64,000 nt of DNA from Tubiluchus corallicola (taxonomy: Eukaryota > Priapulida > Priapulimorpha > Priapulimorphida > Tubiluchidae): assembly GCA_030141605.1 (NCBI GenBank), contig JAQGDQ010002380.1:1-64000 (forward strand), in the 5' to 3' direction. The notes beneath the pieces were generated by a model that saw only the letters and a program-made list of their open reading frames with translations, was not told the DNA's origin and did no database searches. The number at the start of each line of letters is the position of its first letter. Positions within the stretch are counted from its first letter, which is position 1. The position numbers and the translations under genes were made by a program. Shown here in pieces: positions 1,301-64,000 of the stretch.

Positions 1301-2277
1301 CTAGAAAGAAAAACATTAAATTACCACAAACAATACGAGAAAATATATTACTCATTGTTAATAAAATCTAGAAATAATTGGATTGAAATAGAAAATTAAA
1401 AGAATTAAGCAGGTGGATGTCGCACGTGACAAATATACTGATTTCAAAGGGCACAGCGCTAAAATGCAGAAACGACAAAAACTTGAATTTGAACGGCAAT
1501 GAACGTTCAACAGTATAAGGTTCAAACGTAAACAACGCAAAAATATTCGCTATAATTCTGAACAATACGCTAATCAAAGCGTTAACCGGAAATTCTCTTT
1601 TTATTAGATAGAAGGCTTTGTAGAGTTCTGTTTTTCCTTATAAACTGTGTTATAGTTACAGTTATACGTATGGAGTTACTGAGTACAAAATATAGCTATT
1701 CTTTTTTCTCTTCTCCAGTCCACCTCCACACTCCACAGCCCCTAGGAGACACATTATCCCATTATTCCACGCCTTATCTAGTCATCCCACCTCATCATCA
1801 CCAGGAGCGCTTAATGTGAGATAAATGAAATTCGATCCGGTTAATATTTTATGTATCTGCCCGGGCCGACATTATCTGATCACTGGATGACTCATCCTAA
1901 AGTGCTTCATTCTGGTCATGGTCCAGCTAACACACGGGCTTCACACACAATAACTGGGTTATGGATGACGCAACTCTCCAGGTGCACTCCATAGAATGCG
2001 GGGCAAAATTTATCCAAGTCACGAATTGGCTTCCCTTGTTGTAAAATAATAATGATAATGAAGAAATGTGGTGGTGGACAGCCAGGACAAAGAGATGAAA
2101 GGCGGCATGGCTAACACAAAGCCTCAGCAATTTACTAGTAATTTTAATCGATAGCGATATCGCTAGCAACAGCGCCTTTTAATTAACATGATGACATCTG
2201 TTGTTGAGAAAGGAGAAGCAGTATTAACTATTACACTTTAAACGGCAAAATTGGCATTCTTATTGTTACCTAGCAGG

Positions 2278-2345
2278 TGGCTCAGTGGCCTGAAAAGGAA
2301 TATATCAGTAATCGAGCTTCTAACTATGTGAGGTATGAATATTCA
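2278..2345 (+). repeat. tRNA-derived SINE-like remnant
   Basis: A canonical RNA polymerase III A box (TGGCTCAGTGG, 2278-2288) is followed about 40 nt later by a decayed B-box-like stretch (GGTATGAATATTC). No cloverleaf with a proper acceptor stem can be drawn, so it is not a tRNA gene. A degenerate SINE head is the best reading. Confidence 0.35.
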
Positions 2346-2618
2346 CTCATAATTCAGCAATGAACGGATTTTGTAACGTGCATGGCCAGTTAAGCCACTC
2401 AAAGTTCGCAACCGGTGTGGACACCACCCGTTCATCGTGTTGCTTAGTTTCCTAAAATACTTCATAACGAACTTGAGTAAGCACGATTTTTTTCAATATC
2501 GGCTAGATATAATTCTGTTAAGCATCATAATGCATAATTTAAAAAGTCTTGCACCGATTCAGAATACATTTGTTTTGTGTCAGGTTTAAAGTCTTGAACA
2601 TCGTGACACCTGCATTTC

Positions 2619-2755
<137 letters not shown>

Positions 2756-5700
2756 AAAAATTTAAATTGATTTAATTCACAATTTACAATTTTATCACTT
2801 AAAGTCCACATAAAAATGCACCTAAAAACAAAATTATTTTTAAAATAAACCTAAGACATAAATACATCGCTACACGTTAAAACCTAAAACGAAAATTACT
2901 AAATTGCAATAAAACAGAGCTTGCAAGCATCAAATTACACCAAAAACACGCTATTTACATTATTACGGTACAAGAAACTATGCACACCTAATCAATTCAC
3001 TAAAATAATGACGAAAGTAATCACAAATACATTACAAGGACATCGCTCGGAAGACTATACCAGCCAAACACGCCTATGTAATCTAGTATTCAGGTTTATT
3101 GCTCTTGGAAAGTGTAGTTCTATAGTTCTAGTATAATATTAGTATAACGTAATAACATTAAACATTTAGATTTCTCAAACCAAGTAAAATATTATGTAAG
3201 AATACTACTACTTTTTAATTTTTTGTTAGTCGATAACTCTTGCTCATACTTGTACCGCGTGGCTCTGTAATAGATATACTGAGATATTAAACACCAACGT
3301 TATATGCGTATTTCCTGCTGTAAAATATTTACAATTATTATGTATTTTACAGACGTATTTTTGTAACTGACGGTGTTACGCTAGGTTATGTTATCTTACG
3401 TTAGTTGTACACCTATATTATTGACTGAAAATGTTAATTTGTTAAGAAAATATTATCACAGCGAGACACCTGATAAATTTGGTACATAATGGCAATTGTT
3501 TGAGTTCGTGCAGGTAGAATTGTGGTGGATAAGTGAATCGGGCAGCCGATGAGTCACCTCTTGCCTGTAATGCTCACTAGGATTGTAAGGTGAACAGATT
3601 TCCCCTTTACGTTACAATCTGACCGTTCACGTGATATCATTTATATGTGAGTTCAATTAATTCCACTAAAACACTCTGAATTCGGAATGATATAACCGTG
3701 TGCTATGCAATTAAATATTGATTGTTAATCTCTGTGTACCGCTAAAGAAATTATTTTTTTGGTAAATTCAGCCTACTACAGACAAAACTTAAAGCATAAA
3801 TTTTGCTATAAACAATTTAGGATTCGATGTGTTTAGCATAAAAAGGGTTTGAGTCATTATATCCTCCCGGAAATACTAACACGTATAGCTAAGTTATGTA
3901 TATCTTTCGGACGCGGCATTATTGTTCAGCTCTTGTGCATTAAATTGTGCACTATATAAAAAGTAGCAGAAGAAGGCTTCAATAATGCTTTTTCTGATTT
4001 GCTAGAACATTCATATCATTCTTTATCCCCTTTTCTTTTTAACTCGCTTGCGATGTCGCTTTCTTTTTTTCTTTCCTTCTGTTTCTCTGTCTCTTGTAAG
4101 TTTCGCTAAAACAATTCACGCATTCCATTTTACACTATTGAATTTTTTTTAAATTGCACAAACAACATACTGTAACTATTACTCCAGCATTTTGCGTGAT
4201 AAGCAACCATGAAAATAACTAATGCAATTTGTGTCTACCGAAATTTTTGTTTATGCATTAATAAGTGATGCTTGTGATTATAATTTATGAGCTATTTGGA
4301 AATAGCTTGAGTCATGCGGTTGCCAGGCCCTCCTTACCATCTGCTCAGGGGTTTCCTAAAATGCAGAAATGCGTTTGATTGCAAATGTTATTTATTTGTA
4401 TTCCATTGAAAGTTATAGCTTCAAGTGCTTAAAAAATTAAAATGTTGAAGATCTATCCAACATTGACTAAATTGTTGTTGTAAATCGTTTTGGCGCAGTT
4501 ATTGATGAGTTTCACGCTCCTACAATGCTATTGTACAATCTTACGCGCTACCTCTGGCTTCCCTAATGAATCGAATTTGGACAAGATTAGGGTCAGACAT
4601 GTAATGGGTGACTCAAAAATGTTGCGCCAAAATATCTTGCCTATAGTTACGTTTTGCTACACGTGACAATGGTGTTAAAAATTTTCTCAAAAAATATGAA
4701 ACACGTCAGTTGTTCAAGGATTGTAAAACAATTACAACACGTTATATTCTAGTTGGTTAGTTGATGGTCAACAGGATCCATGACTCACTGACTGACTGAA
4801 TACAGCCTTTTATAATTTGCTAATTAATTGCTTTATCGGCAAGTGATTAACTCACTGATACTGATGGAAACTCAACTAACTTACCTTGTCAAGCTGTTTA
4901 GCAGCCTCATTGACTGAAAAGTTATTTGTTGTATTTTATATATTTAATTGTTTAGCTAACTTCCTGGCTGAACCGATCGACCAACTGACTGACCCGCAAA
5001 CTGGCTTGCTAACAAATTCATTGACTCTTTGGTTTACTGCCCGACAGGCCACTTAACCGTCCGATTAACTGGGTTCTACACGGAAGCAGGTCTGTGAAAA
5101 ATATTGCTGCAGAGAGTTTTGTCCACTCTATCTACAACTTTTTCCGTTTAAATGTTAGAAGCTACCACTACCTTACTGCCGTCTAACTCCTGTTTTGCTG
5201 ACAAAGTAGCTTCGTGTTGATACTGCAATAATTAGTTGTTGCAAAATGTAAAGCGAAGTTATAACTTCAGGGTTAGCTTGCTCTTCAGTGTTTTCATTAT
5301 TTATTTAATCTAGTTAATTGCTGAGGCTTTGTGTTGAAGCCATGCCGCCTTTCATCTCTTTGTCCTGGCTGTCCACCACCACATTTCTTCATTATCATTA
5401 TTATTTTACAACAAGGGAAGCCAATTCGTGACTTGGATAAATTTTGCCCCGCATTCTATGGAGTGCACCTGGAGAGTTGCGTCATCCATAACCCAGTTAT
5501 TGTGTGTGAAGCCCGTGTGTTAGCTGGACCATGACCAGAATGAAGCACTTTAGGATGAGTCATCCAGTGATCAGATAATGTCGGCCCGGGCAGATACATA
5601 AAATATTAACCGGATCGAATTTCATTTATCTCACATTAAGCGCTCCTGGTGATGATGAGGTGGGATGACGGGATAAGGCGTGGAATAATGGGATAATGTG

Positions 5701-6236
5701 TCTCCTAGGGGCTGTGGAGTGTGGAGGTTGGTTGGAGAAGAGAAAAAAGAATAATTATATTTTGTTACTCAGTAACTCCATGTCTATAACTGTAACTATA
5801 ACACAGTTTATAAGGAAAAACAGAACTCCACAAAGCCTTCTATCTAATGAAAAGAGAATTTCCGGTTAACGCTTTGATTAGCGTATTGTTCAGAATTATA
5901 GCGAATACTTTTGAGTTGTTTACGTTTGAACCTTATACTGTTGAGCGTTCATTGCCGTTCAAATTCAAGATTATGTCGTTTCTGCATTTTAGCGCTGTGC
6001 CCTTTGAAATACATATATTTGTCACGTGCGATATCCACCTGCTTAATTCTTTTAATTTTCTATTTCAATCCAATTATTTCTAGATTTTATTAACAATGAG
6101 TGAGCTGCACTCATAACAGCCAAGGCAAGATTTTTCTACAGCGTCACTTAGTGGTAAAAAATAGACCACTAATTTTTAGCTTTGAATAATATATTTTCTT
6201 GTATTGTTTGTGATAATTTAATGTTTTTCTTTCTAG

Positions 6237-27490
<21,254 letters not shown>

Positions 27491-31313: not shown

Positions 31314-32939
31314 AAGACGTAGAATATAAAGCATTTTGTGTTTGTGCTTAAAGCGATTACTGCTTCGTTTTGCACAGAAGGATTTTCACTTTTCGTAAAT
31401 TAAACGTGCGTTACTATGAAACTGAAGATACATATGCAAAAGCCATGATTTTTCGGATTTTTCGGATACACAAAGTTTTAATTTGTTTATTTTTTTTAAA
31501 TTCAACTTCAATTCGTAATTTTATTTGGCGTGCGGTGTCGTCTAGATGTCAAGCAGTTGATTGCTGTTCTTTCCGATAGGTGGCAGCAAGAGCTGTAATT
31601 TCTTCCACTCCACGTACACAGGCGCGTAGCCACGTACAATACATGTTGCTTTCAGAAAAGCTCCATTGTAGACCCTTCTGCAAAGTCGTAACCGATTTGA
31701 GAAAAAAAAACACATTAAACGGCCAAGGCATTTGTCGAAAAATAACTAATTAACAACTCACGTTGGATTACGTTATATTTTTATTGCCATATTAGCTTCA
31801 GATAATTCTGAAATTGTGATTCTTTTTTTCGCATAATAACAGCTTTGGAAAAACCAGCCAACGCCTAGAAAACCGACACTTTTCCATTAAGATTGAATAA
31901 TTTTAATTTGTGTAATTTTCCTTCCACCCTTTTTGCCATTTTCTTAATTTACTTCTGGTCCGTGATCAGAAACATTGCTTCTTTAGAAGACAACTTAGAC
32001 AAGCCTTTAATAATACGGTTGAAATTATTTAGCGTAGTAAATTTACTGCAGAGTAAAACAGAGCAATTAGTCTTTGTACACAAATAAATTCGTCTGCAAT
32101 ATGTTAGAAAAAAATTATTGCAGTTATTGCTGCCGTAAATGGGTTAGAAAATATTAATTTCGATGAACAATATTAAACTCTCCGACATTTATTACTTGAC
32201 CACAAACACCGAGCTGCTTCATATATTCCAGCTATTGCTAGGGCAGACCCATTATTACTGGCTTTTAGGCACATAATTGCCTTAGTTTTGACTCCGACGT
32301 TCAAATTAAGTTTTGCTCAGTGGTGTTATTAAGGAAAGGTTACATTCAGTATATGTTAATGTTTTCAGTGTCTGTGCAAAAGTTTTATATTTCAGGGAAT
32401 CGAGACTAGCGGTCCAGAGAAAGCAGTTTTTCTGCCATAAATTTGTAATATTTTAGAGTTACATTATAAATATATTTGGCGCCTTCGGCTTAAGATGTCG
32501 CGGATAAAATTTGGGAGCTTGGGATGTCACGTGACTGTTGTAATTTCACCCATAGTAAGCTCATTCCATTACCATCATTGGCTGTCGTAAGTAGGATAGA
32601 TGTTACACCTCTGGCCGATTTCCCGGGGGGGGGGTGGGGATTTCCCCGGGGGGGTGGGGAAAAACACCCCTAAAAAAGTGCGAAAATCCGGGAAAACCCC
32701 TAAAAAAGTGTGAAAACCCGTGTGAAAGTGCGCACGTGACCGAAATCGACGAAAAAGCGCGAAAAACAAAGAAAAACGAAGAAAAGGCGTGTGAAACGAG
32801 GTAAAAATTTTCCATTTTTTCCCTCCCGCACGGCTTCATTTGGATCGAATGACCTTGAACTCTAGGTCACGTGACCAAAGTTCATTGACCCCTGGCCCCT
32901 GGATGGCTTCTTTTTTTGACACCCCATTTTAAACCGCGC

Positions 32940-33030
32940 GAAACCGCGCGAAAGTGTATGAAAGCGCGTGAAAGCGTGTGAAAGCGCATGAAAGCGTGTG
33001 AAAGTGTGTGAAAGTGTGTGAAACGAGGTA
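32940..33030. repeat. 10-bp GAAAGYGYRT tandem array, left copy
   Basis: About nine units of GAAAGYGYRT with purine/pyrimidine wobble at fixed positions. Mirrored at about 36920-37012. Non-coding, near the outer end of the arm. Confidence 0.85.
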
Positions 33031-33336
33031 AAAAGCGCCTCAAACGAAGAAAAAGGGAGAAGTGGAGTTCCCGCCGAGGACTAATTAGTGCTAATTGGCG
33101 CTAATTGGCGCTAATTGGGGAGCCCCTGCCACCCCTCCGCCGCATGCAAACGTCCGTCCCGGGGGTCGGGGACACCCCCCCTGCAACCCACCCCTCCGTC
33201 GCGTGGAATCGTCCACTGCAGGCAATGAGGGAAATCTTTTTCCCGCCACTCGCGCAGTGCCGGCCCTTTTCCGCGACCACTTCTCTCTCTCTCGGGTGCC
33301 CTCCCTTTTCCGCGACCACTTCTCTCGCGGGTTTAG

Positions 33337-33337
<1 letters not shown>

Positions 33338-33376
<39 letters not shown>

Positions 33377-33377
33377 G
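33338..33377. repeat. (GT)n run in left arm
   Basis: GT microsatellite between the GC-rich stretch and the AT-rich 3' flank of the TBP-like ORF. Mirrored as (CA)n at 36597-36620, where it is shorter, so arm lengths differ here. Confidence 0.95.
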
Positions 33378-33580
33378 GAGATTTATTTCAAACGCCAAAG
33401 TTCGATAAATGCATTTTCACAAATCTTTTTTTATTGATGGATTACAAAAAATTTTTTTTACATTTTTTATGCAAAATACATACGTGCTAAAACTAGATTA
33501 TTATTATTATGGTGACATGATAGTTCTACATTTTACGTTTTTTTCGCAAATTACACAAATTACGCAAAATTACAGTAAAA

Positions 33581-34165
33581 CTACACTAATGACGACGAGC
33601 GAGTACATGGATTGTCGTCGTCGATGTGATACAGACAAACGTTATTGTTGTTAAAAACGAATTCGTTAAATTTGCGGAAAACGCGAGAGAAATCCTCGAC
33701 CTTTGTCCCGCCCATCATTATTATGCTTCCGGTGTGAAAAATGTTCAGAGTAATTTGCTCGCATTTGCAAGTTAGTTTGGGAAATAGTTCCACTTCGTAA
33801 AACACTTCTCTAAAAGAATGCGTCGAAGGACGAACGAGTTCTTCGTACAGTGCACCCAGTTTCAATCTGCAGCGAATTTTGGCTCTGGCGGTGATGGTGC
33901 GAATTGCGATCCCGTCGGCGGGCGTCAGTCCGAGACCTTTCGAGAGTTCTTCGATCGCATTGCGTAGTGCTTTTTCCTCCGAAAAACCGTTGGCCACCAC
34001 GGAGCCGGAGGCAAAAATCATCAGCGTCCCGCCCAGTCGCTTTAGCAGAACCATTTGCGGTTTCCTTTCGTAGCGTCTTCCGCCTGTTCTCCGCCAGAGT
34101 TCGTTCAGATCGAAGCGCTGCGAGAACGAAGCAGTGGCGACGATGTTGACCGTTTGGACTGACAC
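33581..34165 (-). CDS. TATA-binding-protein-like ORF, left copy
   Basis: About 195 codons to a stop at 33581. Two halves each resemble one TBP repeat. Half 1 has VNIVATASF, FDLNEL, then IFASGSVVANGFSEEK. Half 2 has ELFPKL, then IFHTGSIIMMGGTKVEDF, matching the F-x-SG-x-V-x-TGAK and ELFPGL signatures of TBP. Order, spacing and length (about 180 residues) fit the saddle domain; the sequence is far from cellular TBP. TBP-like factors are known in several large DNA viruses, where they direct viral transcription. There is no in-frame ATG near the start; the frame is -1 relative to the overlapping 170-codon ORF. An AATAAA on the minus strand lies at 33430-33435. Confidence 0.75.
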   Translation of the reverse strand: MSVQTVNIVATASFSQRFDLNELWRRTGGRRYERKPQMVLLKRLGGTLMIFASGSVVANGFSEEKALRNAIEELSKGLGLTPADGIAIRTITARAKIRCRLKLGALYEELVRPSTHSFREVFYEVELFPKLTCKCEQITLNIFHTGSIIMMGGTKVEDFSRVFRKFNEFVFNNNNVCLYHIDDDNPCTRSSSLV

Positions 34166-34617
34166 GTTAGTACGTAGTTGGCAATCGTTTCGGACGCCCG
34201 AACCGCTCTGCCTCGTCCGTTGCTCTGCCAACGTATGGCGGGCGGCGGGTGCTCGCTTTCCAGATCTTCTACGCGTATGACCACGCGATTTTTGGGGAGA
34301 TGTTTTTTGACGAAATCGTACATCTCTGCTCCCTTGACGTAGGTGATCCTGCCTCTGGTGGTCTGTCGTAGAATGTTTTCCAATTCTGCGTACTCGATCA
34401 TTCCCTCCTCCCACGAGATGCCGTGTATGTGTCTGATTAGGTAGTTGTAGGTGGATCGCTTGTGCTGGGGAACGCGATTCCAGGGGTGGGGCGGTTTGAA
34501 GGTGTAGTTGTGATATATGCCGGTCTCTATTTCGCGAATTACCAAATTTTTGACCAGGTATTCTTCTTTTCCGCACTGGAAGGCATCTACGGTGAGAACT
34601 ATGCTCGATTCAGACAT
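34105..34617 (-). CDS. 170-codon virus-like ORF of unknown function, left copy
   Basis: ATG at 34617 to a stop at 34105. Landmarks are IVLTVDAFQ near the N-terminus, FKPPHPW (about residues 40-46), YLIRHIHGISW (about 59-69), a YVKG near residue 93 and VIRVEDLE near 115. I associate this spacing with uncharacterised proteins in invertebrate genomes and viruses, possibly an exonuclease-like fold, but cannot name the family. The last 20 codons overlap the TBP-like ORF in the -1 frame and look like out-of-frame sequence. The right copy differs by only two residues (E/D, L/R). Confidence 0.65.
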   Translation of the reverse strand: MSESSIVLTVDAFQCGKEEYLVKNLVIREIETGIYHNYTFKPPHPWNRVPQHKRSTYNYLIRHIHGISWEEGMIEYAELENILRQTTRGRITYVKGAEMYDFVKKHLPKNRVVIRVEDLESEHPPPAIRWQSNGRGRAVRASETIANYVLTCQSKRSTSSPLLRSRSASI

Positions 34618-34845
34618 CTGTGACGATGGGGGGTCCTTCTACGCCGTCGGCAACGAGTTTTCCTTCGATGACGATTTGCTTGTGATTGTTCACAAATTCC
34701 AGAGACTTGATTTTTTCGAAGGTGTATTTTTTTATGACCTTGTTGGGGGCACTCTTGCGTGCGTTGGCGCGCTTGCCGCCCCGCGTCCCCGCTTGTTGTT
34801 GTTGCTTGCGAGGAACGGTGGTTAGAGGTTGTTTGAAATCCTGCA
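34610..34845 (-). CDS. Small basic ORF, left (complete at the breakpoint) copy
   Basis: An open frame ending at 34610, overlapping the ATG of the 170-codon ORF by a few bases. It encodes a Gln/Arg/Lys-rich stretch (PRKQQQQAGTRGGKRANARK) then a mixed segment with KYTFEKIKSLEF and IVIEGKLV. Upstream there is no ATG. The frame is entered from TTCTTCTCTTGCAG, a strong acceptor-like sequence ending about 34846, so this may be the last exon of a spliced gene. Only the part after 34816 is duplicated in the right arm. A DNA-binding or virion role is possible but unsupported. Confidence 0.45.
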
Positions 34846-35149
34846 AGAGAAGAAGAACAATAGTTATAGTATTGTTGTTCGCTAACGACAACTAGGCATT
34901 TTTGATGAGCCATTCTTTCAGATTTCTAGGTTTTTTGGGGGCAGTGGGGGTGAGCACCATCGGCGGCGATGGAGGGGGCGTCGCGGAAATTACGAGTTTG
35001 TCTTCTTCTTTATCATCATCTTTCTCCTCTTCCTCCTCCTCCTCTCGAAAGATGTCCATTCGTGTCCCTCTCTCGCGTCTGCTTTTACACGGAGGGGCGG
35101 AGGTGCCGACGTCCGTGTCTGGCAGACTTCTTTCCGTCCAGTTTGTCCA
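34817..35149. other. Unique spacer of the palindromic element
   Basis: 333 bp with no counterpart in the other arm; it is the loop of the palindrome. It continues the minus-strand coding of the left arm and joins the right arm abruptly at 35150 (GTTCCTCGCAAGC is the shared start). Confidence 0.9.
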
Positions 35150-35150
35150 G
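34892..35150 (-). CDS. C-terminal part of an acidic virus-like protein (truncated)
   Basis: A minus-strand frame through the spacer ends KPRNLKEWLIKNA at a TAG near 34892. Before that come an acidic run (Glu/Asp, about 15 residues) and a Pro-rich PPPSPPMVLTPTAPKKP. An ATG inside it (MDIFREE, near 35056) could start a 55-residue protein. More likely this is the C-terminus of a longer gene cut at the 35149/35150 junction, because the frame is still open there. It lies just upstream of the basic ORF in the parental order. Confidence 0.5.
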
Positions 35151-35356
35151 TTCCTCGCAAGCAACAACAACAAGCGGGGACGCGGGGCGGCAAGCGCGCC
35201 AACGCACGCAAGAGTGCCCCCAACAAGGTCATAAAAAAATACACCTTCGAAAAAATCAAGTCTCTGGAATTTGTGAACAATCACAAGCAAATCGTCATCG
35301 AAGGAAAACTCGTTGCCGACGGCGTAGAAGGACCCCCCATCGTCACAGATGTCTGA
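35150..35356 (+). CDS. Small basic ORF, right copy, 5' truncated
   Basis: It repeats the basic ORF from PRKQQQQ to its stop on the plus strand, but the palindrome junction removed the upstream part. No start codon of its own is visible. Its end overlaps the ATG at 35349 as in the left arm. Confidence 0.45.
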   Translation, partial: VPRKQQQQAGTRGGKRANARKSAPNKVIKKYTFEKIKSLEFVNNHKQIVIEGKLVADGVEGPPIVTDV

Positions 35357-35861
35357 ATCGAGCATAGTTCTCACCGTAGATGCCTTCCAGTGCGGAAAAG
35401 AAGAATACCTGGTCAAAAATTTGGTAATTCGCGAAATAGAGACCGGCATATATCACAACTACACCTTCAAACCGCCCCACCCCTGGAATCGTGTTCCCCA
35501 GCACAAGCGATCCACCTACAACTACCTAATCAGACACATACACGGCATCTCGTGGGAGGAGGGAATGATCGAGTACGCAGAATTGGAAAACATTCTACGA
35601 CAGACCACCAGAGGCAGGATCACCTACGTCAAGGGAGCAGAGATGTACGATTTCGTCAAAAAACATCTCCCCAAAAATCGCGTGGTCATACGCGTAGAGG
35701 ATCTGGAAAGCGACCACCCGCCGCCCGCCATACGTTGGCAGAGCAACGGACGAGGCAGAGCGGTTCGGGCGTCCGAAACGATTGCCAACTATGTTCTAAC
35801 GTGTCAGTCCAAACGGTCAACATCGTCGCCACGGCTTCGTTCTCGCAGCGCTTCGATCTGA
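35349..35861 (+). CDS. 170-codon virus-like ORF of unknown function, right copy
   Basis: Mirror of the ORF at 34105-34617: ATG at 35349, same length, two residue differences. It keeps the FKPPHPW, HGISW and YVKG landmarks. Both copies being intact means either recent duplication or selection on both. It overlaps the TBP-like frame at the 3' end, as in the left arm. Confidence 0.65.
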   Translation: MSESSIVLTVDAFQCGKEEYLVKNLVIREIETGIYHNYTFKPPHPWNRVPQHKRSTYNYLIRHIHGISWEEGMIEYAELENILRQTTRGRITYVKGAEMYDFVKKHLPKNRVVIRVEDLESDHPPPAIRWQSNGRGRAVRASETIANYVLTCQSKRSTSSPRLRSRSASI

Positions 35862-36391
35862 ACGAACTCCGGCGGAGAACGGGCGGAAGACGCTACGAAA
35901 GAAAACCGCAAATGCTTCTGCTAAAGCGACTGGGCGGGACGCTGATGATTTTTGCCTCCGGCTCCGTGGTGGCCAACGGTTTTTCGGAGGAAAAAGTACT
36001 ACGCAATGCGATCGAAGAACTCTCGAAAGGTCTCGGACTGACGCCCGCCGACGGGATCGCAATTCGCACCATCACCGCCAGAGCCAAAATTCGCTGCAGA
36101 TTGAAACTGGGTGCACTGTACGAAGAACTCGTTCGTCCTTCGACGCATTCTTTTAGAGAAGTGTTTTACGAAGTGGAACTATTTCCCAAACTAACTTGCA
36201 AATGCGAGCAAATTACTCTGAACATTTTTCACACCGGAAGCATAATAATGATGGGCGGGACAAAGGTCGAGGATTTCTCTCACGTTTTCCGCAAATTTAA
36301 CGAATTCGTTTTTAACAACAATAACGTTTGTCTGTATCACATCGACGACGACGACGACAATCCATGTACTCGCTCGTCGTCATTAGTGTAG
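35801..36391 (+). CDS. TATA-binding-protein-like ORF, right copy
   Basis: Mirror of 33581-34165, open to a stop at 36391. It differs from the left copy by a few residues (for example W to R after FDLNEL, A to V after SEEK, R to H after VEDFS) and by two extra Asp codons in a (GAC)n near the C-terminus. Both TBP-repeat halves are intact. AATAAA signals follow at 36540-36545 and 36587-36592. No in-frame ATG close to the conserved start. The frame upstream is open but is the shadow of the 170-codon ORF. Confidence 0.75.
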   Translation: MSVQTVNIVATASFSQRFDLNELRRRTGGRRYERKPQMLLLKRLGGTLMIFASGSVVANGFSEEKVLRNAIEELSKGLGLTPADGIAIRTITARAKIRCRLKLGALYEELVRPSTHSFREVFYEVELFPKLTCKCEQITLNIFHTGSIIMMGGTKVEDFSHVFRKFNEFVFNNNNVCLYHIDDDDDNPCTRSSSLV

Positions 36392-36539
36392 TTTTACTGT
36401 AATTTGCATAATTTGTGTAATTTGCGAAAAAAACGTAAAATGTAGAACTATCACGTCACCATAATAATAATAATAATCTAGTTTTAGCACGTATGTATTT
36501 TGCATAAAAAAATGTAAAAAAAATTTTTTGTAATCCATC

Positions 36540-36545
36540 AATAAA
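36540..36545 (+). terminator. Polyadenylation signal of right-arm virus-like transcript
   Basis: AATAAA about 150 nt after the TBP-like stop, mirrored at 33430-33435 on the minus strand. A second AATAAA is at 36587-36592. Confidence 0.45.
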
Positions 36546-36919
36546 AAAGATTTGTGAAAATGCATTTATCGAACTTTGGCGTTTGAAATAAATCTCCACA
36601 CACACACACACACACACACATCTAAACCCGCGAGAGAAGTGGTCGCGGAAAAGGGAGGGCACCCGAGAGAGAGAAGTGGTCGCGGAAAAGGGCCGGCACT
36701 GCGCGAGTGGGGGGGGGGAAGATTTCCCTCATTGCCTGCAATGGACGATTCCACGTGACGGAGGGGTGGGTTGCAGGGGGGGTGTCCCCGACCCCCGGGA
36801 CGGACGTTTGCACGCGGCGGAGGGGTGGCAGGGGCTCGCCAATTAGCGCCAATTAGCACTAATTAGTCCTCGGCGGGAACTCCACTTCTCCCTTTTTCTT
36901 CGTTTGAGGCGCTTTTTAC

Positions 36920-37012
36920 CTCGTTTCACACACTTTCACACGCTTTCGCGCACTTTCACACACTTTCACGCGCTTTCACACACTTTCACATGCTTTCGCG
37001 CGGTTTTGCGCG
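36920..37012. repeat. 10-bp tandem array, right copy
   Basis: Mirror of 32940-33030, read as YRCRCTTTC-type units. Units vary between arms, so the array has diverged since duplication. Confidence 0.85.
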
Positions 37013-37807
37013 GTTTAAAATGGGGTGTCAAAAAAAGAAGCCATCCAGGGGTCAATGAACTTTGGTCACGTGACCTAGAGTTCAAGGTCATTCGATCCAA
37101 ATGAAGCCATGCGGGAGGGAAAAACTGCAAAATTTTTACCTCGTTTCACACGCCTTTTCTTCGTTTTTCTTTGTTTTTCGCGCTTTTTCGTCGATTTCGG
37201 TCACGTGCGCACTTTCACACGGGTTTTCACACTTTTTTAGGGGTTTTCGCGGATTTTCGCACTTTTTTAGGGGTGTTTTTCCCCACCCCCCCGGGCAGCC
37301 AAAGGGGGGGTGGGGAAATCGGCCAGAGGCAAAACATCTATACTACTGAGGCCGAAATACCTGGGAAAGTTAAAGTTGTCCAAAAGTCCTGTAAGACCTT
37401 CACGACCTGGTAGAACCAGTACTTGACAATAATTATTGAAATTATCTCTTTTACTGCATTTGTCACAGACTGGCAATGTTTAAAGCATGTGACGCAAATT
37501 GTGGCCTTCAACTATAGGTGACAGTAGGAAATTGTAATAAAACCCATCGACCTGTTTTTGTGACTTGATTATAGCTTTTTAATATAAGGCTTAGTTCTAA
37601 AAATCCTAACGTTGATTGGGATAATATGTACAAAACATCCAGGTTACAGAATTCTTGAGATTCGAACACCAAACTATCACTGTCCGTTTGTTTTGGATTT
37701 TTTTTTGTAAAAAATAAACCAAAACAGGTACACCAGGGGAAAGTAATTTTTGTTATTATAATGGTTATTCTCGCGGTGATTTCCAAATAGTTGTTTTCTT
37801 TTTATAG

Positions 37808-51910
<14,103 letters not shown>

Positions 51911-53310: not shown

Positions 53311-54107
53311 TTTTGTAAATTAATTTCTCCCAATTTTCATTTACAGAATTTTGTAGTTTGTAAATTTTTGGAAAATTTGTTGATCGTGTTCACACTTATA
53401 AAAAAAGTTTTCATGAAATTATATATTCATTGCATTATAGCTACTGTAGTCTCAGTGTATTTCAAGAAATTAAGATTACGTGTATTTTAGAAGTGAACTA
53501 AGTTTTACACCTAAATGTTAGTGGATTCTCACCTAGCATTAACGATAACCTACCATTTCTCTAGTTAACGTGCATTGTAGAACAACTTTAAAAAACGTTT
53601 TTTATTTGCCATCTGACAAAAACGTTTTTAGTGTGCATGTCACGTTTAATTTTAGGTTATTGAGGCAAACATCACTTAGACTAGTACAGCAGTTTTTATT
53701 CGTTAATTTATAAAAGAGGTATATTTAAACTTTAGTCAATTATATTCAAAACATTAACGCAGTTACGTACTTAAGGCCTAAACTAATTGTAAGAGAGAAA
53801 TTTTTAGACGATGCCACTGCATACATAAACCATAGGGAATACAGTAATATCAAATTTAATTATCGTCTTTTTATTCAGATTTTCAATTTAGAATAAACAC
53901 TTGGCACTCACGACCAAGTGGTCACTAAGCTAACTGTGTTAAACCAATGACACACGGCCGCCAAAACACACAAACCCGCCGACGTCGGCCATGATAACTC
54001 TCCTTAACAGGGCTGTCTCTCCCATTAATGCAAACCAGGCAGTTGCGCAGGGCACCAAATTTTGGTTGGCGTCAAATTCTGGAAGTAATTATTTCATTTT
54101 GAAGTTT

Positions 54108-54748
54108 AGCTTAAGTAATAACATAGCGTATGTGTAATAACATAGCTTAAGTAATAACATTGTGTATGTGTAATAACATAGCTTAAGTAATAAAATTGTG
54201 TATGTGTAATACCATAGCTTAAGTAATAACATTGTGTATGTGTAACATAGATTAAGTAATAGCATTGTGTATGTGTAGTAATATAGCTTAAGTAATAACA
54301 TTGTGTATGTGTAATAACATAGCTTAAGTAATAACATTGTGTATGTGTAATAATATAGCTTAAGTAATAACATTGTGTATGTGTAATAACATAGCTTAAG
54401 TAATAACATTGTGTATGTGTAATAATATAGCTTAAGTAATAACATAGCGTATGTGTAATAACATAGCTTAAGTAATAACATTGTGTATGTGTAATAATAT
54501 AGCTTAAGTAATAACATAGCGTATGTGTAATAACATAGCTTAAGTAATAACATTGTGTATGTGTAATAATATAGTTTAAGTAATAACATTGTGTATGTGT
54601 AATAATATAGCTTAAGTAATAACATTGTGTATGTGTAATAACATAGATTAAGTAATAACATTGTGTATGTGTAATAACATAGATTAAGTAATAACATTGT
54701 GTATGTGTAATAACATAGCTTAAGTAACAACATAGCGTATGTGTAATT
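54108..54748. repeat. 36-bp minisatellite, about 18 copies
   Basis: The unit reads ATAGCTTAAGTAATAACATT then GTGTATGTGTAATAAC. A few units have AGCG for TTGT, and one is short. Because 36 is a multiple of 3, the minus strand stays open as a 12-residue repeat (MLLLKLCYYTYT) for 241 codons. Confidence 0.97.
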
Positions 54749-57872: not shown

Positions 57873-58110
57873 ATAGTATGTGTCCTTTTAATATTTTAAA
57901 GAGTAGATTGTTTTGACCTACAGTTTAAGATTGGGTCCGGTTTTACTTTATATAGTATGTTTCCTTTCAATATTTTAAAGAGTAGATTGTTTTGACCTAC
58001 AGTTTAAGATTGGGTCCGGTTTTACTTTATATAGTATGTTTCCTTTCAATATTTTAACGAGTAGATTGTTTTGACCTACAGTTTAAGATTGGGTCCGGTT
58101 TTTACTTTAT
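57873..58110. repeat. 79-bp tandem array, three copies
   Basis: GAGTAGATTG recurs at 57901, 57980 and 58059, exactly 79 bases apart. Units resemble the 3' part of the dispersed repeat at 56940-57030. Confidence 0.93.
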
Positions 58111-58214
58111 ATTATACTTTATATATTTTACTTTAATTTATAACACGGAATTATATAGAATAATTTTTGCTTGCATTACAATTTTTTTCTACTAATGATT
58201 GATAACTAACGATC

Positions 58215-59466: not shown

Positions 59467-62400
59467 TACTCATGGGATTGAATTAAGAACGCCCGCGTTC
59501 ACACGTGTCTGTGTTGTCTAGTCATTGGTTTGAATTCCAAAGGTTTCTGGTTCAAATATATTGTGTTCACTTTACCAATAACTGATAATCTCGAATTTAA
59601 ACTTATAACTAATTAGCTAATTATTTTATTTAATTACTTTCCAGAAGTTCCAAGTCATCTTCATGACTACGATTCCTACGTGCGGTTCTGCTTTTACCCG
59701 GGGGAGGCAGCTCGACGTCCCGCGCCAGCCACGTTCTTACCAGAAGACATCGACCCCTCAACTTGCACGCACATCGTGTTTGGATACGCCACAATATTGG
59801 ATAATGAGCTGACGGCCAAGTCAGAGTCAGATTTAGGTAAGTTGCTTGTTGCAAAGTGCTTTTGCCAATATGGTGTTATTGTTTACCATCCAAAGAAATT
59901 TCTGTGCTCATTGCGATGATGATGATGATTATGGCGACGACGACAACGATGATGATTCAGCTTTAAGTAGAACAGACAAACAAAGCTGCAATGAGATTTT
60001 TTATTGCCCACGATAAATTACGAATTACAACTACATAACAGAGATTAGTCACACAGGGCAACTACACGTAGCATTTTTTAATTTTTTTATATGACTGTCT
60101 TTCGTATCGAACACGCAACCTCCTGTACGGAGCTCGGACGTTTTACCTATCAGGCTACGCAGCCACTGTATTTGCCTAAGTGTTTGAAGAGAGACAGTAC
60201 GACGTGACTATTAAACGAATACACAACATTGTCGTTCTGGCTATTGAGATTGCAAGCTGAGGTAAAAAGGTATCGAGGTTTAGGGACTGAAGTCGTGGAC
60301 ACTGGGTAGTGGGTTTTGAGTTTAAACAGGTACTGTGGGTAGAAATACCAAAAAACGTCAGGTCTATTTTATACACTCCCGAAATACTTTTCAGATTGCA
60401 CGCAAAGTGTTAAAATTACTTGAAGATCACCAGTCGAATATTCATTCACGAAAAAAGGTTTATAAATAGAAGTAAATAAGTATAATCATTTTACTAGTTT
60501 TACAATCTGTTCACAAACCTACTAAATTGACAATATGATAAAAATCATGGTTTTTTGGTTCTTTTCTTAGAGAAGCGGTACGAAATCTCGACTTCACACT
60601 TAATCGCATTTAGATATAGATCTAGTAACTAATTTAATCTACAGCCAAAGGGAAGAAATAAAATGAGGTCTGCAACATCTTGATGGCTCTGCTTGTTAAA
60701 TGGTTTCAGCTTATCGTAGCCCCGAATGCACCACTCATATTTTACGCCTAGCACACGAACGCAGCGCACCCTGTGCTTAACTCCCCAGCCTGTGGTATCA
60801 TTGATGACTTTCTTTTCTGGCTAATTATCACATTGGACACAATTCAATTCAATTCAATAATTTTTTATTTGGCTGATTTGCAACACAAAACATTAAACTA
60901 TATACGTAATGATAGCAACAATGCGATAACAAAAACAGGTATGGTTTGAAAATTCTACAGAGTAGGATCGTGAACTTTCCAGACTCACCCCGAGACATGT
61001 CTTCTGTTCCTGAAATGGTAACTCGCGTAATTTCGTAACTTTGAAGCTCGTAGCTCTAATTTTAAATGCTTTTACTCACTTTCTGCATATAGTATTTTTT
61101 AGCACTTCTAGTTTTAGTCTAGGTAAATTTTAATTGTATGTTTTTGTGGCTTTTATGCTGAAATAAATAGTACAATGAATGGATCAATCATAAATCAATC
61201 ATTCTGACATGCTCTTCTCCTCACTTCTTAGCTTAACAAACCCAAATGAGGTTCAGTTTTAGTTATTTCAATGGCAAATAAAAAAAATTGATTTAATTTT
61301 GCTTTAATTTTGTTGCGTTTTTCCAACTTTTTTGTTAAATGATAAAGCACATAAAAATTGACGATATAAAACACATTGAAAAATCCCTGGTAAAGACCTA
61401 CTTAACAATAACCAAGGTACACGGTGCAAGAAAGCAACAAACTGAACAAAGACCTGATCAAGTAAAAGTGCATTCAAAGCTGTGGTACAAGGAAAAAACC
61501 TAATGAAGCAATGAGTATTGAAGTAACTTTCCACAAATTTTATATTTTGTCAGAATTTCAAGAGGCCATTTATGCACTTTAACCCATGTCACAAAAATGA
61601 TGTGTCGCATTCATTGTTAAACCAAATTTTGAGCTAAACGTTTTTTAAAACATCGTTATTGCATTGTTTAAGACGCTGGTTGGGCTTTAAATTGCTATTT
61701 GCAGTAATACCTAACTAAAAAATCCGTTTGCACTAACTGTTTCTGTCGAAGCATTTAATAAAATTCTTTTTTAGAATTGTTTCAGAGAATCCTGGCCCTA
61801 AAAAACCAAAATCCAGATCTGAAGGTACTGCTAGCAGTAGGCGGTTGGGCAGAAGGTTCACAGCGTTTCAGCAATATGGCGTGGTCTCTCAACTCACGTC
61901 TTACCTTTGTTAATTCTGTACTTCATTTCCTGAGACAATATGGTTTCGATGGACTAAATGTCGACTGGGAGTTTCCGGGCTACGAACGAAGAGGTGGACA
62001 TCCTTCAGATAGAGACAATTTACCACTGCTCTTAGAGGTATTGATATAAAAATATTAGTAGTATTTGACAGGCTATAACACTCTAACTGCTTTGCTCTTG
62101 AAATTCATCTTTTCAAGCATTTTAAAGCAGGTTGTTAGTTCTGCTAGTTGACCGTCGGTTCTTCGTGTCTATATGGTGTAGTTTTGGCTTGAACAAATTA
62201 ATGCAAAGTGAGGACTCTTCTTACCCAATATCTCTGTGTCAATTTTAAATTTATGTACAATTGTGTGTTTAATTTTTAGGAGCTTCACAAGATCTTTACG
62301 ATGGAAGCCAAGTTTTCCGGCAACAATCAACTAATCTTGGCCACCACGATACCGGGCGCTAAATACTGGATAGATTTGGGTTACGACATCCCGAAAATCT

Positions 62401-64000
62401 CTTCGTGCGTTTATAAATACGTTTCTTATTTTTGATGAAAATAATTGGTACTAATAACGCTATTTAAAAGTTGAATTATCAGTGAATGATAAATTATTAT
62501 GTAGAAGATAACCGCCCTGCAGGTCAAGTGACTAACCTCAAAATTGTCCTTGAAATCTATCATCTACTACCATTAATCCTTGCAAAGCGCCTTGTGTAAA
62601 AAACATCTCTGGTTATTTGTGCTCAAAGAGAAAAAGCTTCTCATAATATTCTTGATTTCTAAATGCAGGTTTAGTGATTATTTACCAATGATGACTTATC
62701 ACCTTAATGGAATATGGAACAAACACGCTGGTCATGGAAGTCCTTTGCATCCTCACTCCTACGATGTGGACAAAACTGCGAATATTGTAAGTGAAGAGGT
62801 CGCCTTTGAAATATCTTTGTTTTTAGTAATTTCAGTTAAGTGTAAGACAACTTGGAAAATCACACACAAGCAAGGGCAGCATTTTTGTGTCATGTGTGTG
62901 AAAGGGATAAATTATTGGAAAATCACGGAAGCACTTTTGAGACTAATAGCTATGAAGATGCGGTATGATCGTTTTCCTTAGATAACCTAGTAATCTTCCA
63001 TGCCATATAGTGTTCCTTGGTTTTTAGGGTACTTGGATAACCTAATAATCTTCCATGCCATGTAGTGTTCCTTAGTTTTTAGTGTACTTGGATAACCTAA
63101 TAATCTTCCATGCCATGTAGTGTTCCTTAGTTTTTAGTGTACTTAGATAATCTAATAATCTTCCATGCCATATAATGTTCCTTAGTTTTTAGTGTACTTA
63201 GATAACCTAATAATCTTCCATGCCATGTAGTGTTCCTTAGTTTTTAGGGTACTTAAATAACCTAGTAATCTTTCATGTCATATAGCGTTCCTTAGTTTTT
63301 AGTGTACTTAGATAATCTAATAATCTTCCATGCCATGTAATGTTCCTTAGTTTTTAGTGTACTTAGATAATCTAATAATCTTCCATGCCATGTAATGTTC
63401 CTTAGTTTTTAGCGTACTTAGATAATCTAATAATCTTCCATGCCATATAATGTTCTTTAGTTTTTAGTGTACTTAGATAATCTAATAATCTTCCATGCCA
63501 TGTAGTGTTCCTTAGTTTTTAGTGTACTTAGATAATCTATTAATCTTCCATGCCATGTAGTGTTGCTTAGTTTTTAGTGTACTTAGATAATCTAATAATC
63601 TTCCATGCCATGTAGTGTTCCTTAGTTTTTAGTGTATTTAGATAATCTAATAATCTTCCATGCCATATAACGTTCCTTAGTTTTTAGTGTACTTAGACAA
63701 TCTAATAATCTTCCATGCCATATAGCGTTCCTTAGTTTTTAGTGTACTTAGATAATTTAATAATCTTCCATGCCATATAGCGTTCCTTAGTTTTTAGTGT
63801 ACTTAGATAACCTAAATCCTATTATCGTTGCTTTTTTTTAAGGAATTCATCGTCCAATATTGGATAAACCATGGAACGGATCCAAAGAAATTGCTGCTGG
63901 GAATTCCTCTTTTTGGACAGACTTACACTCTCCAAGACCCATCTGACCACATGTTAAATGCACCTATTGTAGGAAGTGGCAAGGCTGGACACATGTATCA
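58215..64000 (+). CDS. GH18 chitinase or chitinase-like secreted protein (6 exons, 3' end outside window)
   Basis: Exons 58242-58311 (or from 58215), 59645-59836, 61775-62037, 62280-62404, 62669-62786 and 63843-64000 join in phase to about 308 residues. Residues 1-23 are a signal peptide (GVCLVLVLLAGL core). GH18 landmarks: LPEDIDPSTCTHIVFGYA; KVLLAVGGW (104-112); catalytic-loop FDGLNVDWE with the acid Glu153; LPMMTYHLNG (222-231); LLLGIPLFGQTY. Chitinases cleave beta-1,4-linked GlcNAc outside the cell in digestion, moulting, shell formation or defence. Two canonical acidic positions differ: Asn149 replaces Asp in DGxDxDxE, and His228 replaces Asp in the usual MxYDxxG. Activity may therefore be reduced, or the protein may act as a lectin. 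The C-terminal barrel and any chitin-binding domain lie beyond the window. Confidence 0.93.
58242..58311 (+). CDS. Chitinase exon 1, signal peptide
   Basis: ATG at 58242 is followed by a classic hydrophobic signal and a donor GTAAGT. An in-frame ATG nine codons upstream (58215) could also start. TTATTTTTGCAG just before 58242 looks like an acceptor, so a 5' UTR intron is possible, and the shorter start gives the better signal peptide. Confidence 0.85.
58312..59644. other. Chitinase intron 1
   Basis: 1.3 kb. The 3' part (about 59255-59470) resembles a LINE 3' end: GACCTCGATGACTTATAG-type text, then TAATAAACTTGC and a (TTGC)n tail at 59421-59460. The rest is AT-rich without features. Confidence 0.55.
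59421..59470. repeat. (TTGC)n / (TTAC)n tetranucleotide run
   Basis: Ten TTGC units changing to TTAC. Possibly the tail repeat of a LINE copy. Confidence 0.95.
59645..59836 (+). CDS. Chitinase exon 2
   Basis: 192 nt between TTACTTTCCAG and GTAAGT. It encodes YVRFCFYPGEAARR in place of the usual VCYFTNWSQYR, then FLPEDIDPSTCTHIVFGYA. Confidence 0.92.
59837..61774. other. Chitinase intron 2
   Basis: 1.9 kb with a tRNA-like SINE head on the minus strand (60091-60166), short GAT repeats near 59918-59955 and an ATTCA run near 60845. Otherwise featureless. Confidence 0.6.
60091..60166 (-). repeat. tRNA-derived SINE head
   Basis: The minus strand has GTGGCTG at the 5' end, an A-box TAGCCTGATAGG, a CTCC/GGAG anticodon-like stem, a good B box (GTTCGATAC) and a 3' CAGTCAT able to pair with the 5' end through G-U pairs. 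The base before the anticodon is not U and A14 is missing, so it is not a working tRNA. An AT-rich tail follows. Confidence 0.5.
61775..62037 (+). CDS. Chitinase exon 3, catalytic motif
   Basis: 263 nt between TTCTTTTTTAG and GTATTG. It holds LLAVGGWAEGSQRFSNM and FDGLNVDWEFPG. Catalytic Glu and the preceding Asp are intact; the first motif Asp is intact; the second is Asn. Confidence 0.96.
62280..62404 (+). CDS. Chitinase exon 4
   Basis: 125 nt between TTTAATTTTTAG and GTGCGT, phase 0 to 2. It encodes LILATTIPGAKYWIDLGYDI, the GH18 strand LLSAAVPAG equivalent. Confidence 0.92.
62669..62786 (+). CDS. Chitinase exon 5
   Basis: 118 nt between CTAAATGCAG and GTAAGT. It encodes SDYLPMMTYHLNGIWNKHAG, where relatives have MxYDFHGxW, and NxPLHP. 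Confidence 0.92.
62981..63815. repeat. 55-bp minisatellite, 15 copies, in chitinase intron 5
   Basis: TAATCTTCCA recurs every 55 bases from 62991 to 63761. The unit holds GATAATCTAATAATCTTCCA, TGCCATGTAGTG and CCTTAGTTTTTAGTGTACTT. Each unit offers a CCTTAGTTTTTAG acceptor-like word. The array ends about 30 bases before the real acceptor of exon 6. Confidence 0.97.
63843..64000 (+). CDS. Chitinase exon 6 (runs off window)
   Basis: From CTTTTTTTTAAG at 63842 the frame is open to the window end. It encodes FIVQYWINHGTDPKKLLLGI then PLFGQTYTL, the GH18 VQxWLxxGxPxxKLxLGxPxYG signature. Confidence 0.93.

Follow-up and report, generated by a model that had tools for sequence, protein, structure and literature searches.

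Inverted pairs of TBP-bearing Maverick left ends in the priapulid Tubiluchus corallicola: probable snap-back derivatives at a locus that is probably an assembly join

Background

Mavericks, also named Polintons, are virus-like transposons that are thought to be integrated viruses. Snap-back or defective-interfering genomes and derivatives resembling miniature inverted-repeat transposable elements (MITEs) carry inverted copies of one end, have lost the core genes and outnumber the full-length form. Here we analyse a palindromic element at positions 32590-37347 of a 64,000-nucleotide stretch of DNA (the window) from the priapulid Tubiluchus corallicola (assembly GCA_030141605.1, contig JAQGDQ010002380.1, positions 1 to 64,000, forward strand), each arm of which encodes a protein resembling the TATA-binding protein (TBP), and compare it with both kinds of system.

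The Polinton core is described as consisting of an integrase, a B-type DNA polymerase (PolB), a C5 protease and an ATPase (PMC3671162). Intact vertebrate Mavericks are reported to be intronless, and their commonest end motif is given as (AGT)2//(ACT)2, which is tied to jumping-back in protein-primed replication (PMC8097293). TBP is listed among the common or core genes of nimaviruses and mirusviruses (PMC10871703, PMC12768974), large DNA viruses that resemble the present element by this gene description only and are otherwise different viruses. Among the matches listed from the open-licence papers searched, we found no description of a TBP in a Maverick; one vertebrate transposon review among them contains both 'TATA-binding protein' and 'Polinton', and the word 'TATA' is absent from PMC8097293 and PMC11071308. 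As no TBP-like Maverick gene came up among these matches, we regard the element as a new TBP-bearing variant: Mavericks themselves are known, and the new part is the TBP-like gene with its overlapping 170-codon partner.

Together with its parent, the element shares with Mavericks an integrase with a chromodomain, PolB, the AGTAGT end motif and, at the single right end available, terminal inverted repeats that are short; a putative adenain-like protease and a putative ATPase, both weakly matching, and a capsid-like gene may add to the likeness. Unlike them, it has at its left end a TBP-like gene and an overlapping 170-codon open reading frame (ORF), probably forms inverted derivatives of the left end only, and contains a predicted small intron. 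No 6-bp target-site duplication turned up at the derivatives read. Inverted one-end pairs, loss of core genes and a higher copy number resemble the snap-back, defective-interfering and MITE-like systems, from which the element differs in being Maverick-derived and integrated in an animal genome. We explain it, with a probability of roughly 0.64, as one of a set of snap-back, left-end-only Maverick derivatives, the locus in the window being an assembly join.

Results and discussion

The palindrome and its parent element

Positions 32590-34816 (2227 nt, genes on the reverse strand) and 35150-37347 (2198 nt, genes on the forward strand) are inverted copies of each other separated by a 333-nt loop (34817-35149), so that both blocks of genes read outwards. 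An earlier note on this DNA had described arms of about 2.2 kb around a 333-bp loop, common inverted termini with short arrays, and an element richer in GC than its AT-rich host, and this description is borne out. The arms align over 2187 columns with 56 substitutions. Of these, 14 lie in a decamer array (32931-33023 in the left arm, 36921-37016 in the right) and 17 in the 52 bases nearest the outer end, together 31 of the 56; the 1236 aligned columns of the gene part contain 12, along with a single 6-base gap. The GC content of the element is 0.49, as against 0.35-0.36 in the flanks, and its observed/expected CpG ratio is 1.28, as against 0.83-0.88. With up to 3 mismatches allowed, the window contains exactly two copies of a 27-base common terminus, and none of 100 shuffles contains any; the left copy (32590-32616, forward) is of the AGTAGG type and the right one (37321-37347, reverse) of the AGTAGT type, read inwards. 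Across 16 distinct flanks, 7 termini read AGTAGT and 9 AGTAGG, the search pattern itself having fixed AGTAG, and the AGTAGT/ACTACT termini match the commonest vertebrate Maverick end motif. A native hairpin telomere at both ends was considered and rejected: on the right, all 200 shuffles fold less well than the terminus itself (z -4.2), whereas the left does not stand out (z +0.3). The terminal G-rich stretch takes the form of a near-perfect inverted repeat on the right (37278-37318), but visual inspection of the left (32624-32664) suggests a direct repeat.

The search for a full-length parent in the same genome, which the earlier note had proposed, yielded parent pieces with integrase, polymerase and capsid-like genes in contigs C1626 and C2073. 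Contig C1626 (locus L030) shares the terminus, arm and loop, and then runs on into a block of genes in the order 314-amino-acid ORF, ATPase-like ORF, further ORFs of unassigned role, integrase with chromodomain, and a 488-amino-acid ORF that by resemblance is putatively capsid-like. The loop of the window differs from L030 by a net 8 bases, and its reverse-strand ORF is the C-terminal part only of the 314-amino-acid ORF. The integrase is of the retroviral type (L030:5921-7015; rve PF00665, E 1.8e-17; Chromo PF00385, E 8.4e-6). In its tail (L042), C1626 carries a protease-like end together with the C-terminal piece of a polymerase that is truncated at the contig end; neither the protease-like piece nor the 303-amino-acid polymerase piece matches Pfam on its own. 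Over 1317 aligned bases this tail is 96.5% identical to polymerase DNA of C2073, where a 669-amino-acid ORF is a B-type DNA polymerase (PF03175, E 2.2e-10). By these parent genes the arm, as judged from sequence, is the left end of a Maverick/Polinton virus-like transposon, and the view of the earlier note that no described element is of this kind gives way to a place with the Mavericks. The core genes of an autonomous Maverick are missing from the element in the window, which holds just the basic, 170-codon and TBP-like ORFs and the C-terminal remnant in the loop.

Inverted left ends elsewhere in the genome

Inverted pairs of the same left end occur on other contigs. In C2228 the fold lies at 9 common bases; these correspond to 35150-35158 (forward) of the window, where the native sequence that follows the loop and the start of the arm coincide. 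In C229 the loop is joined to an inverted outer 732 bp at a 10-bp microhomology, and in C47 the left arm is joined to an inverted outer 806 bp. C354 has inverted arms with both TBP frames open and 105 bp of unrelated filler between them, whereas C197 has the left arm and loop followed by about 640 bp of inverted arm. The junctions read in C47, C229 and C354 are free of N.

Copies of the TBP-like gene outnumber those of the capsid-like gene. Among at least 72 TBP matches, 39 are full-length and without stops, although 13 of these 39 belong to one shared block and two pairs of matches on C354 and C2254 look like repeats of each other; among at least 18 capsid-like matches, a single one is full-length and open. 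The other 33 and 17, respectively, are short or bear stops, and the intact counts exclude them. The 170-codon/TBP pair also recurs, with its order kept, in diverged loci including C1757, C485, C1706, C2130 and C1149; amino-acid identities there are about 36-76%, and the copies are mostly in pieces or have stops. A distant TBP match (29%) at G000:C1461:415971-416453 has a 288-codon open frame without stops, and perhaps belongs to the host TBP family.

The window as an assembly join

The window opens contig C2200 of the host assembly, whose 2344 contigs total 343.5 Mb. Contig C2228 (344,513 bp) begins at a base that matches window position 34437, and C2200 (378,949 bp) is longer by exactly 34,436, which places the end of a left piece (1-34436) inside the left arm. 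From 34437 to 64000 the window is the start of a block common to C2228 and to the ends of other contigs (query positions 1853-4768 have 100% matches on additional contigs). A 60-base probe taken from 34437 matches four of seven palindromic loci (the window, L002, and L006, L007 and L008), and in all four the start of the block lies exactly 344,513 bases from the contig end. L003-L005 each have one mismatch to the window early in the block, among its first 38 bases (at 34461, 34474 and 34474), and none beyond, to the end compared. From the terminus outward, the right flank of each of L003-L008 is that of the window (0 mismatches in 1520 bases), the base-by-base comparison of the 344.5-kb block covering these 1520 bases and the arm region. 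The six readable left flanks (window, L003, L004, L006, L007 and L008) are all different. The block also recurs at the ends of C2200, C2159, C2271, C1850, C2066, C1781, C2, C2228 and others.

One host region cannot adjoin so many left flanks, and therefore at most one of these joins can be correct. The two halves of the window are thus probably not neighbours in the animal, the locus having most likely been formed when the assembler joined the fold-back piece of C2228 to the left half of another copy. The claim that the locus is one intact element is not upheld, since six other palindromic contigs have the same right flank and every readable left flank differs. An insertion within a host intron without target-site duplication was also considered, and is withdrawn because the flanks are different assembled pieces. 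As the block is reused, copy counts and synteny for this genome can be inflated, and palindromes of this assembly need checking before use, with one 344.5-kb block standing behind several left flanks.

Origin of the inverted pairs

Inverted left-end pairs on other contigs, together with microhomology at two junctions, make snap-back formation the best reading. While linear Maverick DNA is being replicated or repaired, synthesis would switch strands at a short microhomology and copy the left end back out. The product would be a molecule with two left ends, devoid of capsid and polymerase genes, in which the terminal sequences that the integrase would target are retained. Full-length relatives could mobilise such dimers in trans; the one observation that suggests this step is the copy imbalance between TBP-like and capsid-like genes. 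The earlier note had proposed a fold-back copy of one terminus of a linear virus or virus-like transposon; derivation from one end of a virus-like transposon stands, as do inverted pairs elsewhere and microhomology, but the locus in which the idea arose is itself probably misjoined.

A fuller version of this account, which we put forward tentatively and hold to be less likely than not, concerns a Maverick lineage with a TBP of its own, whose gene overprints a second one beside the left end. The lineage would spread for the most part through palindromic dimers of that end, formed by snap-back at microhomology. Such dimers would be natural defective-interfering Mavericks with both integrase targets and a virus-encoded TBP preserved, and rare full-length copies would mobilise them. 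If true, a TBP-bearing Maverick lineage would offer one route by which such elements could control nuclear transcription, and snap-back dimers of the end would be to Mavericks what defective genomes are to viruses.

Several observations weigh against the snap-back account. No 6-bp target-site duplication flanks the window element, C47 or C229, which are three two-ended loci and derivatives in a misjoining assembly, and no compatible target-site pair is present among the 16 flanks; for the window the result is uninformative, as its two flanks are likely misjoined. In C354 the left arm matches from query position 392 onward and no terminus could be recognised at that end; the second stretch of C197 stops short of the terminus with its junction unread. 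Native right ends are represented by one case (C2073). The Maverick assignment of some parent genes is weak: the C5 adenain-like protease scores 17.2 bits against a cut-off of 21.3 (L031; PF00770, E 0.0041), the packaging ATPase is under the cut-offs of both FtsK_SpoIIIE (E 0.0089) and AAA_14 (E 0.0074), and the 488-amino-acid ORF has no match in Pfam at 0.1 or in PDB at 1. Finally, the other inverted pairs could also be joins, since the same assembly misjoins at this repeat.

Carried to its end, this last point becomes the strongest competing explanation, that all inverted pairs, the fold of C2228 included, are misjoins or chimeric library molecules and that the genome holds just linear Mavericks and truncated left ends. 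Several contigs do end in the same 344.5-kb block, inverted junctions with microhomology arise in amplified libraries too, and the absent target-site duplications and the C354 arm without a left terminus are what it would lead one to expect. We nevertheless consider it unlikely: an overlap of 9-10 bp is short for an ordinary assembler join, the junctions of C2228, C229, C47 and C354 all differ, and 56 substitutions separate the two arms.

Improbable, in our estimate, is an internal deletion in a kind of Maverick that natively has terminal repeats of about 2.2 kb and so already carries the TBP block at both ends. The outer inverted stretches at C229 and C47 fit such repeats, and Maverick terminal repeats of 402 +/- 276 bp have been reported (PMC8097293). 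Against this, the sole right end seen, that of C2073 with its polymerase DNA so close to that of C1626, shares about 88 bp of the common terminus at 86% identity and has no other arm match of note, and C1626 has the TBP block at its left end only, although the contig stops before any right end. Because so little is common to the C2073 right end, the arms of 2.2 kb probably do not represent native terminal repeats, and two outward-facing left ends would be a derived state. Capture of a host TBP paralogue by a foldback-type DNA transposon, in a block without viral ancestry, is highly improbable: it would suit the unmistakable two-repeat TBP, but the parent has an integrase and, at its tail, PolB, GC and CpG differ between element and flanks, the 170-codon/TBP pair is found again in diverged loci, and the TBP-like protein is far from the cellular stretches compared (which did not include animal TBP paralogues) relative to P0001.

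The TBP-like gene and its overlapping partner

Read outwards, each arm has the TBP-like frame as its last gene, after a basic ORF and a 170-codon ORF. This frame lies at 33581-34165 (reverse; Pfam PF00352, E 2.3e-22) and 35801-36391 (forward; E 4e-22; best PDB match 4wzs_D, 3.7e-9), and the right-arm frame scores PF00352 at E 2.9e-21. The protein has both TBP repeats (35 PDB matches at E up to 1) and is 59% identical to P0001 and 28-31% identical to three cellular TBP stretches. Aligned with these, it retains the glutamate pair of YExELFP and, of the four phenylalanines that in TBP intercalate into DNA, three. P0001 was its one relative in public collections and was recovered twice; none appeared in viral_contigs (protein or A1 as query), genome_contigs or phages. 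The viral contig L001 (28% identical, from a wider TBP alignment) was judged by its ORFs to be a haloarchaeal virus and not a relative.

The 170-codon ORF (34105-34617, reverse; 35349-35861, forward) overlaps the open TBP frame. None of 52 candidates at E 0.01 is a homologue of it, and searches of PHROGs, Pfam and NCBIfam gave no family; it has a single PDB match at E 0.37, and no relative in viral_contigs, genome_contigs or phages. The predicted structure of its product has a mean predicted local distance difference test score (pLDDT) of 37.5 and was left out of fold searches; its presumed strand/helix order and exonuclease-like resemblance are no more than leads. In viral_contigs, the basic ORF likewise has no relative, and the capsid-like and ATPase-like proteins of the parent have no match.

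From sequence and reading phase, the left copy of the basic ORF is predicted to consist of exon 1 (34887-34913, reverse) and exon 2 (34610-34840, reverse) around a 46-nt GT-AG intron (34841-34886). The right copy (35150-35356, forward) is without its 5' part, lost at the fold, and stops at a single UGA that separates it from the TBP frame, with which it is in phase. Three open ORFs per arm had been claimed; a two-repeat TBP does stand in each, but the right basic ORF is incomplete and the TBP frame has no ATG upstream of its core. Past the UGA the frame is open for 344 codons in the right arm and 342 in the left, and spans the entire 170-codon ORF. An overlap of 150 codons remains open in just 0.03-0.5% of draws under synonymous resampling or permutation, and an N-terminal extension of TBP overprinted on the 170-codon ORF is therefore likely. 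A -1 frameshift fusing the two was rejected, there being no canonical slippery site by eye.

In the assigned frame, 7 of the 12 gene substitutions between the arms leave the amino acid unchanged (against a null mean of 3.2; P 0.02), an excess that points weakly to selection on both arm copies or on their separate ancestors; those in the overlap agree with the 170-codon frame and not with the TBP frame. The TBP-like gene, with its overlapping partner, would be expected to act on transcription.

Other features of the window

No Rfam family reached its gathering score in the window, one weak match (E 0.43) lying within the element, and a tRNA search of the window found none. A second large inverted repeat (1-2138 and 5310-7540; 62 substitutions in 2135 aligned bases) has host-like GC, arms 3.2 kb apart, a left arm truncated by the window start, and no ORF of at least 110 amino acids. 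Pieces of host genes, all on the forward strand, comprise a 34-codon open stretch that ends at GT (37808-37909), a PH-domain-like piece slightly under the cut-off (48720-49091; PF22697, E 5e-6, 27.2 bits) and a chitinase exon (61762-62046; PF00704, E 1.4e-22). Minisatellite arrays occupy 54107-54747 (36-base unit), 57873-58112 (79-base unit) and 62977-63815 (55-base unit).

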